Assembly: GCF_027595985.1 (NCBI RefSeq)
Contig: NC_073304.1
Span: forward strand, 222,509,723-222,573,722
From: Sorex araneus
Taxonomy: Eukaryota; Chordata; Mammalia; Eulipotyphla; Soricidae
Reading direction: 5' to 3'
Length of the DNA stretch: 64,000 nucleotides
In this document: piece by piece, positions 4,640 through 63,164 of the stretch
How the letters are laid out: each line of letters begins with the position of its first letter
Numbering within the stretch: the stretch's first letter is position 1
Translations under genes and position numbers: made by a program
Notes under the pieces: model-generated
What the model was told of the DNA's origin: nothing
The model's database searches: none
The model's input: only the letters and a program-made list of their open reading frames with translations

Positions 4640-4760
4640 AACCGGCTTGATGGCGAAGTAGTTTGGTGGTCGAGCACAGGCCTTGCATGTGTGAGGCCCT
4701 GGGTTCGATCCCCAGCATGGCACTGCCAACTGTAACCCTGTGCTCCCCACAAGCCCCTTC
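4640..4760 (+). mobile_element. Possible ID-like tRNA-derived SINE fragment
   Basis: GGTCGAGCACAGGCCTTGCA followed by GGGTTCGATCCCCAGCA gives a pol III-like head different from SINE A, resembling the tRNA-Ala-derived heads of rodent ID elements. No clear tail. The family is not identified. Confidence 0.4.
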
Positions 4761-5800: not shown

Positions 5801-5960
5801 CAGTCGGTCATCTGAGTAAGACGAGGTCCTTGAGGCTGGGAAGGGTGGGGAAGAGGGGCAGGGGGTGTAGATGCCAGGATCACCTAGTTCATGTTGCAGT
5901 AACAAGTGTTACCAGAGCTTCTGAGGCCGAGAGCCTGGTGGCCAAGCTCATCTCTCACCT

Positions 5961-22716: not shown

Positions 22717-23085
22717 AACTCCCACATTTGGCTGCGGTCCTAATCCAATAAATGCTTAGGAGATTTCGATAGAATAGATTCATTTTTGCTAGAAAAAAAT
22801 ATAATTGGCTGATGTTAAGGCTACGGCCCTGACAAATCTCCCCGGCCATATATCTGAGAGAGGCAAGGGGCCACTCATAGGCACATAAATATGCCACCAT
22901 CCACGCGGGCCCGGCCAAGCACTCTGGGGACGCCTCCCACGGTGATTGATTCTTCATTAATAAGCTCTCTGCTGTATTAGGAGCAGATTTATGACTCTGC
23001 CTTCCCGAGCCTCCTGACATGGCATCTGTGGAAAATGACAAATGTGATCGGGAGCCGTGGACGCTTCTCTCTGTTGGCTGTGCCC
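22715..23085. promoter_or_regulatory. Candidate conserved non-coding block
   Basis: Repeat-free 370 bp with many factor-like motifs: CCAATAAATGC, AAAATATAATTGGCTG, CCGGCCATATATCTG, GGTGATTGATTCTTCATTAATAAG. Confidence 0.4.
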
Positions 23086-23104
23086 AAAGTTCGGGTGTTC
23101 GGGG

Positions 23105-23266
23105 GCCAGAGTGATAGTACAGCAGGTAGGGCATTTGCCTTGCACACAGCCAACTGGATTCAATGTCTTACACATAGAGAGACCCCCAAGCCTCTCCAGG
23201 AGTGATCCCTGAGCTCAGAGCTGGAGGCGAGCCCTGGAACGCTGCCAGGTGCAACCCAGAGAACCA
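23105..23266 (+). mobile_element. SINE A (diverged)
   Basis: Sense copy, head well kept (GGGGGCCAGAGTGATAGTACAG); the tail runs into TA repeats. Confidence 0.8.
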
Positions 23267-23340
23267 AACTATATATATTTATATATACAAATATATATAG
23301 TAATATATTGTATATATATATATGTATTGTAATATATATT
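23267..23340. repeat. (AT)n-rich tract
   Basis: TATATA-rich stretch between a SINE A tail and the SINE B 3' end. Confidence 0.9.
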
Positions 23341-23544
23341 CACTGCATCACTGTCATCCTGTTTTTCATCGATTTGCTTCAGTGGGTGCCAGTAACATCT
23401 CCATTCATCCCTGTCGCATGCTAGTGTAGCCCAATGGCACACTGGGGTCTTCCAGGATCAGGGGAATGAGGGGAATTCAGGATTGTTGTTAGTGTTTTGG
23501 ACCTATCGAGTATGCAATGGGTAGCTTGCCAGGCTCTGCCATGC
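23341..23544 (-). mobile_element. SINE B, 3' half only, fused to MITF 3' UTR
   Basis: This copy is antisense to the window and has the same orientation as the MITF 3' segment. The tRNA-like head is absent. The sequence starts inside the body at the GGCAGAGCC motif, immediately next to MITF 3' UTR, and ends in an AT-dinucleotide tail (23267-23340). Confidence 0.85.
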
Positions 23545-24908
23545 AAATAAAATATATCTTATGAAAAAAATGAATCATACTAATTGATAAGGAAAACTGT
23601 AACAGAGCACATAGTAAAAAAAGCCAGAGTAGATGCTACATTTCTGGGCCTCGTTCTGTCTCCTTTCCATTCCAATTGTACCTAAGTAAGGGATAAGTTA
23701 TGTTCTCTAACCAGACTATCCTCAAAGAAATTGTAGTATATTTTTTTTCTCTGACTGAATATAGTATTTCTTTAAATAGTTTGTAGTACAAAGACTGAAT
23801 GATGCTAGATACTGTATCTTTAAGGCAGTACCAACGAGTGAATACATTTATAAAATAGGAAAGAATAAAATTGCAAGAATTTCTTTTCTTCTCCCTTTCT
23901 TTCTCTCCTCTCTCATCTCTCCCCACCCCTCTGCCACCTTACATTTAATTAAATTTTACATTTAATTTTCAAGGAAGTCACAGGCATCAAAATCTCAAAC
24001 CAAATTTCCCCTGAATAAAAATGGACAAAAATTGCTCTGATGCAAAAATCCTTTTGCTCAGAAAGCTAAAATCCAGGGTGAATTCAGTTCCCAGATATTG
24101 TACACACATTGCACAATACTCTGGAGGCATTTGTAGTTGTAAAATAGAATATACAAGTCTTATTTCACAACATTCTAAAAATAAAATACATCTCGGGCTA
24201 TTGATAAAGCATGAAAAAATGCATATTAAAGGGAAATTCTTGTATCACTTGTATCGCTTGTTTTCCTTAATAAGGAAAGTTATTAAGGAAAAAAAAACCC
24301 ATCAGGTAAATTATGAAATCTACTCATCAAGAGAGGAAGCAGCCTGTGAGGGCAGGGCAGGGCGGGTTTGCTAACAAGCGTGCCCTGTGTCTTCTGTGCG
24401 CAGACCGCCCCTGCGGCCGGCCGCTCCTTTTGGAGACTTCCAGAGACACAGACGACAGAAGTGGATCCGTGACTCCGACAGAGGAAAGGGTATCATCCAT
24501 GAGGATGTCTCCCAGTTTGGATCCCATTTGGGGGGGACACTGTAGACCTGGCTGTTCTTGGTTCCCATTCCCAGGTTGTTGCGGAAGGAGAAGGTGCCGC
24601 CGGTGAGATCCAGTGTGGTGGTACAGGTCAGGGGTGCATGGTGCTGGAGACGGTCTTGGTTGCAGTTCTTCAAGGCCGGTTCTTTTTTTTATTTTTTTTG
24701 CTTTTTGGGTCACACCCGGCGATGCACAGGGGTACCTCCTGGTTCTGCACTCAGGAATTACCCCTGGCGGTGCTCAGGGGACCATATGGGATGCTGGGAT
24801 TTAAACCTGGGTCGGCCGCGTGCAAGGCAAACGACCTACCCGCTGTGCTATCACTCCAGCCCCTCAAGGCCGGTTCTTGCTTGATGCGTCGATTCCCCAT
24901 TGAGCACA
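23545..24908 (-). pseudogene. MITF: MITF processed pseudogene, 3' segment with 3' UTR
   Basis: On the - strand this segment continues MITF just after the break in the companion + strand segment: NRIIKQEP-like codons at about 24898, then [34 protein letters not shown] and a final HAC plus stop at 24373-24371. Frameshifts separate these pieces. About 820 bp of MITF-like 3' UTR follow down to 23545. Between the two segments about 12 codons are missing (human IPSTGLCSPDLV), typical of a twin-priming junction. A SINE A at 24685-24863 splits it with a 15-bp target duplication (TCAAGGCCGGTTCTT). No poly(A) is seen; the UTR runs straight into SINE B sequence. Confidence 0.93.
24685..24863 (-). mobile_element. 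SINE A inside the MITF pseudogene
   Basis: This is a nearly intact copy. Target duplication TCAAGGCCGGTTCTT is seen at 24670-24684 and 24864-24878, so the insertion came after the pseudogene. Family features seen across the window are: an A box TAGCACAGCGGG and a B box GGTTCGATTCC in a tRNA-like head, a tail half built from two similar units around CCAGGAGTAA, and a 3' end GTGTGACCCAAAAA plus A-rich tail. Confidence 0.92.
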
Positions 24909-24919
24909 AGTCACCAGCA

Positions 24920-26468
24920 GACCGGCGGGCTGAGGTTAGCCACTCGGCTGGGGCGCACGACTCCCGGGAGACCCGGCCCCGGCCACGGGCTCTGCTCACA
25001 CTTTCAAGCCATCCGAGTACGGGGTGCCGGAGCCATGCAGTTGGAATCGGGTATCGTGCTGGATTTTGAAGTCGGGGAGGAGCTTCACGAAGAGCCCCAA
25101 ATCTATTATGCACTCAAAAGTCAGCCCCTGAAGAGCACAGCAGTTCCGAGGAGCATCCTGGGGCCTCCAAGCCTCCGGTAAGCTCCTCCAGTGTGACATC
25201 ACGCATCTTGCTAAATTAGCAACTCACGCGTGAGCAGATGCAGGAGCTGGAGCGCGGGGAGCAGCGGCAGAAGCTGCAGGCAGCCCAGTTCACGCAACAG
25301 AGAGCGCCCATGAGTCAGACACCAGCTATAAACGTCAGTGTGCCCACCACCCTGCCCTCTGCCACCCAGGTGCCCATGGAAGTCCTACCAAGTACCAAGT
25401 ACCACATACAGCAAGCCCAGAGGCAGCAGGCAAAGCAATATCTTTCTACCACGTTAGCAAATAAACATGCCAACCAAGTCCTGAGCTTGCCATGTCCAAA
25501 CCAGCCTGGCGATCATGTCATGCCATTGATGCCCGGGACCAGAGCAGAGTACCCAACAGCCCCAAGGCCTTGGAGCAGAGCAGAGCACCCAACAGCCCCA
25601 AGGCTATGCTCACACTTAATTCCAACTGTGAAAAAGAGGGATTTTTATAAGTTTGAAGAGCAACACCAGGTGGAAAGCGAAGGCCCCAGTATGAACACGC
25701 ATTTACGAGCATGCTGCATGCAGATGGATGATGTAATTGATGACATCATTAGTTTAGAATCGAGTTCTAATGAAGAAATCCTGGGCTTGATGGATCCTAC
25801 CTTCCAAATGGCAAATATGTTACCGGTGTCTGGAGATTTGATTGAATCTTGATGGAAACCAAAGTCTGCTCCCTCCCGGTATTACCATCAGCAACTCCTG
25901 TCCATCGAACCTTCCCAACATCAAAAGGGAGCTAACAGGGGGGCTGGAGTGATAGCACAGTGGGTAGGGCATTTACCTTGTATGCTGCTGACCCGGGTAC
26001 AATTCCCAGCATCCCATATGGTCCCCTGGGCACCGCCAGGAGTAATTCCTGAGTGCAGAGCCAGGAGTAACCCCTGTGCATCACCGGGTGTGACCCAAAA
26101 AGCAAAAAAAGCAAAAAAAAAAAAATAGGAGCTAACAGAGTAACAGAGTCTGAAGCGAGAGCACTGGCTAAAGAAAGAAAAAAAAAAGGACAATCACAAC
26201 TTCTTGATTGAACAAAGAAGAAGATTTAATATAAATGACCGAATTAAAGAACTAGGTTCTTTGATTCCCAAGTCAAATTATTCAAACAAGCGCTGCAACA
26301 AGGGAACCATTTTCAAATGCGTCCAAAGACTATATCAGAAAGTTGCCTTGAGAACAGCAACATGCAAAAGAACTTGAAAAGCGGCAGAAGGAGCTGGATG
26401 CCAACCAGCATTTATTGCTCAGAATCCAGGAACTTGAAATGCAAGCTCGAGCACATGGACTTTCCCTT
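24920..26468 (+). pseudogene. MITF: MITF processed pseudogene, inverted 5' segment
   Basis: This is an intronless, damaged copy of the MITF mRNA, a bHLH-zipper transcription factor. It begins in GC-rich sequence that looks like the MITF-A 5' UTR, then MQLESGIVLDFEVGEE (isoform A first exon) at 25034. After frameshifts come [58 protein letters not shown], and the basic-helix-loop-helix and zipper down to QARAHGLSL at about 26468. Exon junctions are crossed without introns. The six-residue ACIFPT alternative exon is absent. A 30-bp tandem duplication lies at about 25545-25605. The longest surviving frame (25238-25852) is broken at both ends. A SINE A interrupts the copy at 25942-26127 with a GGAGCTAACAG target duplication. 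Not functional. Confidence 0.95.
25942..26127 (+). mobile_element. SINE A inside the MITF pseudogene
   Basis: Complete sense copy with an A-rich tail, flanked by GGAGCTAACAG on both sides. Confidence 0.92.
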
Positions 26469-26722
26469 GATAGCACAGCGGATAGGGCGTTTTGCCTTGC
26501 ACGCGGCCAACCTAGGTTTGATTCCTCCATCCGTCTCGGGGAGCCCGGCAAGCTACCGAGAGGATCCCGCCCACACAGCAGAGCCTGGCAAACTACCCGT
26601 GGCATATTCAATATGCCAAAAACAAGTAACAACAAGACTCACAATGGAGACGTTACTGGTGCCCGCTCGAGCAAATCGATGAACAACAGGACGACAGTGC
26701 TAGCGTGCTACAGTGCTACAAT
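26469..26722 (+). mobile_element. SINE B, adjoining the MITF pseudogene
   Basis: SINE B starts with the same tRNA-like head as SINE A (A and B boxes) but continues with a different body: two GGCAAGCTACC units, then ATATTCAATATGCC, a GGAGACGTTACTGG block and AGCAAATCGATGA, ending in CAGTG(A/C)-type repeats instead of poly(A). This copy lacks about the first 12 bases and joins the last MITF codon directly. Confidence 0.85.
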
Positions 26723-28139
26723 AAATAATTAAAGGATGGGTGTTCAGAAGAGGCACAACCCTGGGCGTCCTGAGGCAGAGTGTGGGAGGGACCAGCAGGC
26801 GGCAGCTGTGGCTGTGGTACCCCTGGCATCCAAAAAGCCAGAAGTCCTCCCTGCTGGCCTTTGGCAATGTGACCTTAAACCTCTGAGATACTCCAGGTAT
26901 CTGGGGTACCTGCCTGGCTTTTGAGGTGCTGGGACTGGGACCCCGGCTGCCCCCTGGCTCAGAGCAGGTCCCAGCCTGTGTCACTGCAGCAGGCGGGGAG
27001 AGAGAGGCCTCACGGGGCTGGGGAGGGGCCTTCTCCGGGGACCTCTGTCTTACCCCTGTCGGGGGCGGCTCCAGTTGGCGCGTTCCTCCTGGGCTCTCCC
27101 ACTGTGGTCTCCTGTCTCCCGGTTCTGTCTACACCTTGTCTGAGGTTCCAACCTGGAGTTTCCGCTCCCCCTCTCTGGGACCCGAAGAACAGAGCTGGGG
27201 CTCCGAGAGTCCCCGGGGGGGAAGGGCGGGGGGAGGTCAGACCCAGGGAGAGGAGAATATCAATGCTCGTACCACTGAGCACTTCGCCCCGCTGGCCTGG
27301 CTACAGCAGGTCCCAGAGTCCAGAGCACCGGAAGTGCCCAGTGCAGGCCAGAGTCTGAAGGGCCCCAGGATCTTCCGCTGAACAGCTTCCGGGGTGAGTC
27401 CTGCCGTGTGGACATCAGGCGAGGGGCCGGGCCTTGAGCTCAGGCGGCCTCTATAGCTGGAGCGTCTCTCCCCACCCAGCGCTGGTTCACATGGGGTGTG
27501 ACCCATGAGGATCACTGCCAATGCTGACGCTGAGGGGCCCTGTCCGCCCGCTCCCCAGGACCCCAATTTCTTGGCTGGGGGTCGGAGGGCAGGAACTCAA
27601 GCCTCACCCCCATGCCACAGACTCATGCTGGAGTCTCGAGTTCGAGGCTGAGTCTCCCCCAGGGCCAGAGACGTGACTGAGGGGCTGGGGGCCAAGTCTG
27701 CTGATCCTCGGCCCCCCCCGGCCCCTGGAACCACTCCAAAGCACCCCTAAAGCAGATGACGCCTCCTGGGCTAGCTGCCTTCCCTTCTGGGCGCTCCTGC
27801 TGGACTCAATGATGGGTCCCTCCCGCTCCCCACCCCCAGCTTGGCCGCAGGTGGCCATTGGGGCGCCCCCAGCTGAGCGGAAACTTGAGCCTGGTGGCCA
27901 GGAGGGGGCGCACTGGCCCGCCTCATCCTTTGGCCCTCAGCGTGGATGGGTAAAGGCACCACGGGTTTTTGGGACCCCGCCTCCTGCTGGCCCCAAGACC
28001 ACCTCCTCTCACCCCAGCTCCCTTTCCAGGCCGGTCCTAGAGGATGGGCCCTGCCTGTGGGGAGGAAGCCGCCGGGCGCGCAGAAAGCAGACCCACGCCC
28101 CTCTGCCTTCCTAGATCCCAGTCCCAGGTCTGCTCGCTA
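26723..28139. other. GC-rich unique sequence, nothing recognised
   Basis: Frames of 90-150 codons on both strands have no recognisable domain. Confidence 0.5.
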
Positions 28140-28735
28140 GGGAGACTGTCCGTCCCCCACTCCCCTGCCCCTGACCTGCCTGTCCCCCTTTCCCCTGCCT
28201 CTGTCCTGTCCATCCCCCCTCTCCCCTGCCCCCAGTCCTGCCTGTCCCCCTTCTCCCCTAATCCTGTCCTGCCCAGACCCCTCTCCCCTGCCCCAGTCCT
28301 CCCATCCCCACTCTCCTCTGCCCCAGTCCTGCCTGTCCCCCACTCCCCTGCCCCTGTCCTGCCTGTTCCCCTCTCCCCTACCCCAGTCCTGCCCATCCCC
28401 CCTCTCCCCTGCCTCTGTCCTGTCCATCCCCCCTCTCCCCTGCCCCAGTCCTGCCTGTCCCCCTTCTCCCCTAACCCTGTCCTGCCCAGACCCCTCTCCC
28501 CTTCCCCAGTCTTCCCATCCCCACTCTCCCCTGCCCAAGTCCTGCCTGTCTCCCTTCTCCCCTAACCCTGTCCTGCCCAGACCCCTCTCCCCTGCCCCAG
28601 TCCTCCCATCCCCACTCTCCCCTGCCCCAGTCCTGCCCGTCCCCCTTCTCCCTTGACCCTGTCCTGCCTTCCCCCTCTCCCCTGCCCCAGGCTTGCCTGT
28701 CCCCCCCTCTCCCTGCTTCTGTCCAAACCAGCCCC
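28140..28735. repeat. CT-rich minisatellite (VNTR)
   Basis: Tandem units of about 28-30 bp around CCCCTCTCCCCTGCCCCAGT and CTGCCTGTCCCCCTTCTCC. Longer blocks of several units recur (for example from about 28238, 28457 and 28548). The glycine-rich reading frames on the - strand are the translated repeat and not a gene. Confidence 0.9.
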
Positions 28736-44289: not shown

Positions 44290-44746
44290 ATGGATCCCAT
44301 GGCCAGCAGCTGCATGCGGAGTGCTCACCCCCCGGCCCCGGTCTGGGGCTGCCTCCGTAACCCCCACGCGGAAGGCGGCGGGGCCTCGGGACTCCCCCAC
44401 TACCCGCCAACCCCGTTCTCCTTCCACCAGAAGCCAGATTTCCCGGCGGCGGCGACAGCAGCGTACCCCGATTTCTCAGCCTCCTGCTTAGCAGCCACCC
44501 CACACAGCTTACCCCAGGAGGAGCACCTCTTTGCTGAACAGCACCCAGCCTTTCCGCAGCACTTCCCCGTCTCTGACGCCCCACGCAAGCTCACCCCGGG
44601 TCCTACTGGCAGCTCCCAGGACATGGGGGCCAGCAGCCCCGGCCTGGTAGATGCCAGGGGAGCCGCCGGTGAGGACTACGAGGGCCCCGGGAGCACTGGC
44701 AGTGAGACGGAGAAGAAGGCAACCAGGCGGAAGAAGGAGAGTTCAG
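44290..44746 (+). CDS. MEOX1: MEOX1 coding exon 1 (mesenchyme homeobox 1, N-terminal half)
   Basis: This exon encodes residues 1-152 of MEOX1, a nuclear homeodomain transcription factor of somite, sclerotome and dermomyotome development. It starts MDPMASSCMRS and continues with the PPAPVWGCLRNPH and FSFHQKPDF blocks, which I recognise from human MEOX1. The chosen ATG at 44290 gives the family N-terminus; a second in-frame Met is residue 4. A Pro/Ser-rich middle part is followed by an acidic stretch and a basic TRRKKESS end. Compared with human MEOX1 as I remember it, four residues (SPNW) before HFPVSD are missing, which accounts for a total of 250 instead of 254. The exon ends in phase 1 at TCAG|GTAGGT, a strong donor. 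The open frame continues past the donor, but that tail is intron. I am very sure of the identity. Confidence 0.97.
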
Positions 44747-55110: not shown

Positions 55111-55465
55111 TGGTAAAAATAATGCATCATCTTGCACCTTTTATCGTATCAAAGAATCAAACCCTTGTGTATCTCTCTACATTTTTATTTTTTATAAATG
55201 AGATGATGGGCCTGGGAGATAATTTCAAGTGGGAGCGCACACACATGTTCAAGTACCCAAGTTCTGTTCACTGTGTACACCACTGAGAATGACCCCTGTG
55301 CTTTAAAATGTTCTCTTTGTCCAAACCAACTTAATCAGGTCAAAGATCAGAACAAAGATCAACTTTCTATAAAGAGTCGAGAACAGAGACTGTTCAATTA
55401 AGCCTTATAGTCTAGCTTTCAAAAACGGTGTGTAGAACTTTAACAGATGCAAAGCATCTGGTCTC

Positions 55466-55997
<532 letters not shown>

Positions 55998-55999
55998 GT

Positions 56000-60480: not shown

Positions 60481-60653
60481 ACAACCAGGAGCCCCGAGGG
60501 AAGGCGGAGGGCGGCAACAAGGCCCGCAAGGAGAGGACAGCCTTCACCAAAGAGCAGCTGCGGGAGCTGGAGGCCGAGTTCGCCCATCACAACTACCTGA
60601 CCCGGCTCCGGAGATACGAGATCGCCGTCAACCTGGACCTCTCCGAGCGGCAG
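60481..60653 (+). CDS. MEOX1: MEOX1 coding exon 2 (homeodomain, helices 1-2 and start of helix 3)
   Basis: These 173 bp encode residues 153-210. The exon begins after a pyrimidine-rich acceptor (tctctcccccag) with DNQEPRGK and carries the homeodomain from about residue 167: [18 protein letters not shown], then [23 protein letters not shown]. With the single base carried over from exon 1 it makes exactly 58 codons, so the exon ends in phase 0 after Gln210. The donor is CAG|GTGTGG, weaker than consensus. Because 173 is not a multiple of three, skipping this exon would shift the frame and remove the homeodomain. A fairly intact SINE A sits about 140 bp upstream of the acceptor. Confidence 0.97.
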
Positions 60654-60914
60654 GTGTGGCCAAGGGACCTCCTCTCCCGCCCTCCCCCACCCCAACTCCT
60701 CCCCGAACCTTCTTCCTCTTCTCCCTCTGTTCCCGTCCACTGATTCTATTCTTCGGCTGTGGTTGAGATTCACTGTGGAGATTTGAACATGCTGGTGTCT
60801 GGGTACCGCCCTCAGGGATGGCTTTCATAGGTCTGGGGTGGGGTCTGGCACCCAGGATCCTCAGGGTCCCCAAGGGGATTCAAACACACAGCCGGCATCA
60901 GCACTTCTGATCCA

Positions 60915-62620: not shown

Positions 62621-63041
62621 AATAATAATAATTTTTTTAAATTATTTTTTTTTAAATTTTTAAATTTTTAAAAATTTTTAAAAATTATACAAAAATGTTG
62701 CTGGGATGAGGCTGGTCATGGATTCTCTGCCCAGCCATTGCTGTGTAAGGTTCACTAGAAGTGGGTGCTGGGAGGGGAGGCCCCTGTGTAGGGGGCGGGG
62801 CCTGCGGAAGAAGGTGGGGGAGCAATGCAGAGTCACTTAGAACCTTCCCAGTCTCTATGGGGCGGGGTGTTCTCGGGGCAGACGCTGGGCTGGATCCTGG
62901 AACTTTCAGAGGTGTGAGGAGGTGTGCTCAGAGTTCTGAGCGGGTCCCCCGAGTCGCTCCTGGCTCATTCAGCATCAATATGGGGACGAGGTTCCACTTA
63001 CCCGGAGGTGAGTTGGCTCATTCGCTTTTTCACTTCTTCAG

Positions 63042-63164
63042 GTCAAAGTGTGGTTCCAGAACCGAAGGATGAAGTGGAAGCGCGTGAAGGGGGGTCAGCC
63101 CATCTCCCCCCATGAGCAAGACCCCGAGGACGGGGACTCCGCGGCCTCTCCAAGTTCAGAGTGA
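63042..63164 (+). CDS. MEOX1: MEOX1 coding exon 3 (recognition helix, C-terminus and stop)
   Basis: The acceptor cttcttcag at 63033-63041 precedes [18 protein letters not shown], the DNA-recognition helix. Trp214, Phe215 and Asn217 correspond to homeodomain positions 48, 49 and 51. Gln216 is position 50, as in Antennapedia-like proteins. The homeodomain ends near residue 226 and is followed by the short acidic-serine tail [15 protein letters not shown]...SPSSE, then TGA at 63162-63164. The intron at the Q|V boundary inside helix 3 is the known MEOX gene structure. No frameshift or missing key residue is seen, so the gene looks functional. Confidence 0.97.

Follow-up and report, generated by a model that had tools for sequence, protein, structure and literature searches.

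The DNA analysed here is a 64,000-nucleotide stretch of the Sorex araneus genome (the window, C3:222,509,723-222,573,722), within which lies a retrocopy of MITF in two head-to-head halves: half A on the + strand (24917-26467) and half B on the - strand (from about 24906 down to 23545). Pfam profile searches of seven reading frames, three of which scored above the curated cut-off, found MITF_TFEB_C_3_N (2.1e-22) and HLH (5e-8) in + strand frames and DUF3371 (4.7e-11) in a - strand frame, and the best PDB matches of the bHLH frame were MITF chains (1.7e-17). Moreover, tblastn with a human MITF-A query of approximate sequence placed amino acids 1-406 on the + strand (25035-26468) and approximately amino acids 423-526 on the - strand (24688-24374). 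Together with an alignment to the genome's own MITF gene, the parent of the copy, these results confirm the two opposed halves described in the first-pass annotation. The span given there (23341..26722) holds in part: MITF homology was recovered within 23545-26467, whereas 23341-23544 and 26468-26722 are occupied by repeats that we take to be SINEs. Introns are absent from the copy at 9 of 9 exon junctions, as compared with the parental gene, which bears out the claim that it is processed.

MEOX1 probes, likewise of approximate sequence, matched the + strand of the window at 44290-44559 (90% over 90 aa), 60528-60656 (100% over 43 aa) and 63018-63098 (78% over 27 aa), and about 17.5 kb therefore separate the MITF copy from the start codon of MEOX1, which lies downstream of it. 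The window also contains a minisatellite at 28146-28724 (periods of 30, 91 and 213 bp) and a long pyrimidine-rich simple repeat at 55447-55998, in which open frames read repeated FLSF.

Using the N-terminal portion of the copy as a protein query, we searched the genome (2.4 Gb, 65 contigs) and recovered five places: the locus itself, three exons of the parental MITF gene on contig C4 and one place on C12, 46% identical, which looks like a paralog. Ten exons of the parental gene were identified, which we take to be exons 1A (L017), 1B (L006), 2, 3 and 4 (L007), 5 and 6 (L008), 7 and 8 (L009), and 9 with the 3' UTR (L010); the name 6a, used below for a part of exon 6, is likewise assumed. Joined with refined borders, these exons encode an intact MITF-A protein save for 106 N in exon 2, which were skipped in counting the differences between copy and parent. 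A MITF relative in viral contigs was also considered, and none was confirmed.

Half A (24917..26467, + strand) comprises the 5' UTR, exons 1A-8 and the start of exon 9, and runs on the parent from L017:2487 in exon 1A to L010:4674 in exon 9, in agreement with the earlier description of a + strand part extending from the MITF-A 5' UTR through the leucine zipper. Approximately 117 nt of 5' UTR precede the start codon, and since the parental sequence upstream of L017:2487 stops matching the copy, the 5' end of half A probably lies close to the cap site of the mRNA. From exon 6 the 18 nt of part 6a are absent, which points to the shorter MITF splice form as the template. Half A further shows a 21-nt deletion across the 1B/2 junction, a small insertion at 1A/1B, a tandem duplication of a 36-nt unit (25531..25602, + strand) and a later SINE (25939..26122, + strand) with a target duplication around AGCTAACAG.

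Half B is likewise interrupted by a later SINE (24685..24864, borders within about 5 nt, - strand; target duplication CAAGGCCGGTTCTT). Its main part (23545..24684, - strand) contains exon 9 coding sequence and about 0.84 kb of 3' UTR, and aligns to L010:4728-5876 with 83% identity over 1201 columns, gaps counted; the start of the half (24865..24906, - strand) is exon 9 sequence and includes the second target-duplication copy of the inner SINE. On the parent, half B thus extends from L010 4694, or from 4686 when a poorly matching stretch is included, to 5876 (window 23545), and the MITF C-terminus and 3' UTR lie on the - strand as originally proposed. The proposal of a full-length mRNA is not supported at this end, where half B stops within a longer 3' UTR and passes straight into a neighbouring SINE (SINE L) with no poly(A).

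The two halves meet at a 10-nt joint of uncertain assignment (24907..24916). Half A ends at L010:4674 and half B begins at 4686-4694, so that 11-19 nt of exon 9 (4-6 codons) were lost from the mRNA between them, fewer than the approximately 12 codons estimated initially. The copied 5' end meets half B within these 10 nt, and the twin-priming geometry reported before is thereby recovered: the front part is inverted, the inner ends are adjacent and the mRNA endpoints are only 11-19 nt apart. A joint at the mRNA 5' end combined with such a gap is the mark of twin priming, and an inversion of later date is hard to reconcile with it. The target duplications of both inner SINEs can still be recognised, one as an exact repeat of 14 nt and the other at 88% identity over 16 nt; hence, recombination between these SINEs was not the cause of the inversion.

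The copy is decayed. Half A differs from the parent at 106 of 1184 bases (91.0% identity) and half B at 115 of 1120 (89.7% identity), values at which a chance match to MITF is excluded. The differences are distributed over A coding sequence (89/1069), the 5' UTR (17/115), B coding sequence (44/337) and the B 3' UTR (71/783). Since substitutions are even over codon positions 1, 2 and 3 (27/357, 26/355 and 36/356 in half A; 13/110, 15/111 and 14/110 in half B), in-frame stops are present in A (two; none in B) and frameshifts occur in both halves, no coding constraint is seen. The alignment contains 11 indel rows in A, including one end effect and one beside the N stretch, and two in the coding part of B. 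The coding capacity of the copy is lost. Divergence (K) amounts to 0.056-0.066 for half A, and to 0.0895 for the 3' UTR and 0.104 for the coding part of half B, the values for B including parental change. If neutral change is assumed to proceed at 2-5 x 10^-9 substitutions per site per year, a divergence of about 0.06 would correspond very roughly to 12-30 million years; half B would give more.

The outermost element on the left is SINE P (23101..23268, + strand), which resembles other SINEs; the locus seems to be lodged in its tail. It has a K of 0.38 from the short-SINE consensus and is the most diverged of 63, although another subfamily may contribute to this value. SINE P starts right after AAAGTTCGGGTGTTC (23086..23100, + strand), and AAAGGATGGGTGTTC (26731..26745, + strand), which matches it at 12 of 15 positions, stands right after the tail of the rightmost SINE (SINE R). 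A match as good or better was found in 5 of 4661 random placements at a word length of 15, picked post hoc, while at 12 letters 10% of random placements equal the result. We regard the pair as the probable target duplication of the older SINE P, bracketing the locus, in which case everything from the AT-rich repeat through SINE R lies in the tail of P. Left of SINE P, non-repeat sequence at about 22740-23085 gives the impression, by its letters, of a conserved non-coding element.

Next to SINE P lies an AT-rich repeat (23269..23340, with tandem repeat rows at 23270-23339) that belongs to the tail of P and/or to that of SINE L (23341..23544, - strand); the 5' end of SINE L adjoins the MITF 3' UTR. 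At the other side, SINE R (26468..26730, + strand), of the long type and lacking approximately its first 10 nt, is fused to the 3' end of half A. Both outer ends of the copy are thus fused directly to a SINE, each SINE having the orientation of its half. By eye, 15 of 31 long-type SINE rows, about half, retain the head, the rest being cut at various points, some of them because the locus from which they were taken ends there; type L is a mosaic SINE, and the single other close copy of it in the loci examined (L028, about 775-1000) starts, also by eye, within a few nt of the 5' start of L. At least four neighbouring SINE pairs less than 20 bp apart occur elsewhere in the window. The frame across L and an open frame across R matched no Pfam family. 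SINEs L and R have a common RTE-like 3' end, resembled by the 3' end of a decayed LINE fragment (L011:4439-5475; RVT_1 9.1e-8 for L011:4439-4741), which we presume to be of RTE type on the basis of RTE motifs. On the same basis, the fragment and the SINEs with a similar end may be related to RTE1_Sar of the common shrew (PMC6542046).

The outer ends of the copy were also inspected for target duplications, as the first-pass annotation had advised; one probable pair was found, the 12/15 match described above, and it was assigned to the older SINE P and not to MITF. No own target duplication was detected for MITF, whether taken by itself or together with L (best 8/15); the match for the insert from L to R (11/15) consists of AT-rich sequence and is uninformative. 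SINE L alone has a possible AT-rich duplication (8/8, 10/12 or 11/15), of a kind that is cheap in AT-rich DNA. The idea that SINE R entered half A independently at a later time was rejected, with a duplication of 7/10 at best and no MITF sequence beyond R. The K of SINE L to its only close relative is 0.186, from which we estimate about 0.09 per copy if both share one source, and SINE R has a K of 0.034, the lowest of the 31 long-type rows. Comparison of non-CpG differences in R (6/181) with those in half A at codon positions 1 and 2 (36/648) gave a Fisher p of 0.26, and with those in A plus B (55/840) a p of 0.12, neither being significant. The ages estimated for L and R do not discriminate between insertion beside older SINEs and joint arrival with MITF.

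Several observations bear on the tailless end of half B. SINE L was considered as a piece of the parental 3' UTR and thereby as the source of a tail; in this assembly the parental 3' UTR extends beyond the end point of B and has no SINE there, which rejects this possibility. A natural poly(A) site was rejected as well: the nearest AATAAA/ATTAAA signals in the parent are at L010 5401 and 6301, as against the B end at 5876, even though a variant AATATA is present about 15 nt upstream of that end. The last 20-mer of half B is 95% AT (19/20), equalled in richness by 1.2% of 20-mers in the 3 kb past the stop, and this AT-rich end makes it our first choice that a target strand rich in AT primed within the mRNA. 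When the end of half B was compared with the tail of P, complementarity reached 11/13 on one strand, a value equalled at 1.0% of 3' UTR positions; in five other settings 4-27% of positions do as well, so the complementarity is mostly at chance level.

Collectively, these results suggest, with a probability of roughly 0.55, one twin-primed and tailless insertion of a spliced MITF-A mRNA into an AT-rich cluster of SINEs. The mRNA, without the 18-nt exon 6a, would have been reverse transcribed at an AT-rich break among SINEs, within the tail of an older one. One DNA end would have primed inside the AU-rich 3' UTR instead of on poly(A), giving half B, and the other near codon 406, running to about the mRNA 5' end and giving half A; B would have halted where A began, and the two cDNAs would have been joined by their inner ends. 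SINEs L and R would have been in place already, and a small amount of target DNA would have been lost. The cap-site 5' end, the order of priming, the AU-rich internal priming, the prior SINEs, the target loss and the LINE source are what we infer. According to PMC12016303, the cDNA ends of human L1 insertions with 5' inversion lie within 20 bp of each other in 46% of cases (132/287). LINE-1, named initially as the agent, is not supported, given the lack of poly(A) and of an own target duplication, and the presence of an RTE-like LINE fragment together with SINEs that share its end; a check for LINE-1 TT/AAAA priming found no poly(A) and, as the presumed target, an AT-rich SINE tail from which no priming site could be recovered. 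Thus, of the first interpretation, the processed state, the 5' UTR and the geometry of twin priming stand, but not full length, the number of codons lost or LINE-1 as demonstrated. Against twin priming into pre-existing SINEs it must be said that both outer ends hit SINEs at or near the SINE 5' ends with no spacer, which a random insertion point would not predict, and that R looks younger than the copy, the wrong way round for a SINE already present, albeit not significantly. Moreover, the SINE beside half A shows, by eye, no complementarity to MITF past the break, so the annealing of that primer is unsupported.

Possibly, the SINEs at both ends arrived together with MITF. Reverse transcription would then have started at both ends of the break on the RNAs of SINEs L and R, run up to or close to their 5' termini and switched, on both sides, to the same MITF mRNA, leaving SINE L-B and A-SINE R head to head; a RTE LINE could be the machine, as the 3' ends of L and R suggest, and a RTE-like reverse transcriptase fragment does occur in the genome (L011). 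This is a tentative alternative which we consider doubtful, and its fullest form, a double chimera produced in one event by a RTE-type LINE with both AT-rich break ends primed on SINE RNAs and a messenger of unsuitable tail brought in between the two SINEs as inverted halves, is slightly less credible. It would account for two SINEs that point outward in the orientation of the MITF half that each touches, truncated at the 5' end or close to it and joined to MITF with neither poly(A) nor spacer, and for the similar start of the L-type copy at L028; insertion into the AT-rich tail of P would hide the target duplication, and L, at about 0.09, is as diverged as half B. Switching of transcripts by LINE enzymes is described in PMC2104539 and PMC13174262. 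However, two switches onto one mRNA would be required, at the points of switching the MITF pieces begin inside the mRNA and are not full length, L (on one relative) seems older than half A, and R seems younger than either half.

A co-linear retrocopy that underwent inversion of its front half only afterwards, through recombination or the repair of a break, would yield the identical order of pieces, yet we find it improbable, since it has to produce a joint at the mRNA 5' end with the small exon 9 gap and at most 10 nt unassigned, and the inner inverted SINEs still have their own target duplications. Even less credible, to the point of being nearly dismissed, is the separate insertion of two different fragments of MITF. 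Each half does carry its own SINE at the outer end; but the halves complement each other and almost adjoin on a single mRNA, the genome search with the N-terminal part found, besides the locus, only the three parental exons and the paralog-like place, and separate target duplications for the halves were looked for and not found.

The locus is a real, dead, twin-primed MITF-A retrocopy, and its kind is already known; it is unusual mainly in that the normal tail is missing and the copy is wedged between two outward-pointing repeats. Twin priming and 5'-inverted mRNA retrocopies were reportedly the subject of work by Ostertag and Kazazian in 2001 and by Kojima and Okada in 2009. The earlier characterisation as uncommon was overstated, as 5' inversion is present in 13.0% (3/23) of human polymorphic processed pseudogenes according to PMC12016303. 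Like the 5'-inverted retrocopies of Kojima 2010 (PMC2912911), the MITF copy has an inverted front, a direct rear, joined inner ends, a small loss at the break and no introns; unlike them, it lacks poly(A), and a target duplication belonging to it was not found. Tailless retropseudogenes (PMC5322556) are similarly 3'-truncated RNA copies without an A tail, with mRNAs among their sources, and their integration was proposed there to proceed via complementarity between internal sequence and site; that set has flanking target duplications, whereas the MITF copy is inverted and a search for such duplications around it found none. Template-switch chimeras (PMC2104539 and PMC13174262) resemble the locus in that transcript fragments are fused directly to 3' parts of SINEs or LINEs in the same orientation, but here each of the two outer ends carries such a fusion in a head-to-head arrangement, and simultaneous arrival would be hypothetical. 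By the measure used for chimeric retrogenes, a full-length 5' RNA part, the MITF halves are fragments, and only half A reaches approximately the mRNA 5' end. Among the titles listed for MITF retrogenes, shrew and 5'-inverted retrocopies, we saw no report of this locus.

We herein describe a datable twin-primed copy of a messenger whose parent gene is available in the same genome. If the copying did not start on SINE RNAs, the locus is a dead retrocopy of the ordinary sort, albeit one whose features are unusually combined. If it did, an mRNA without the tail preferred by LINEs would still have been copied, by way of template switching at both ends.
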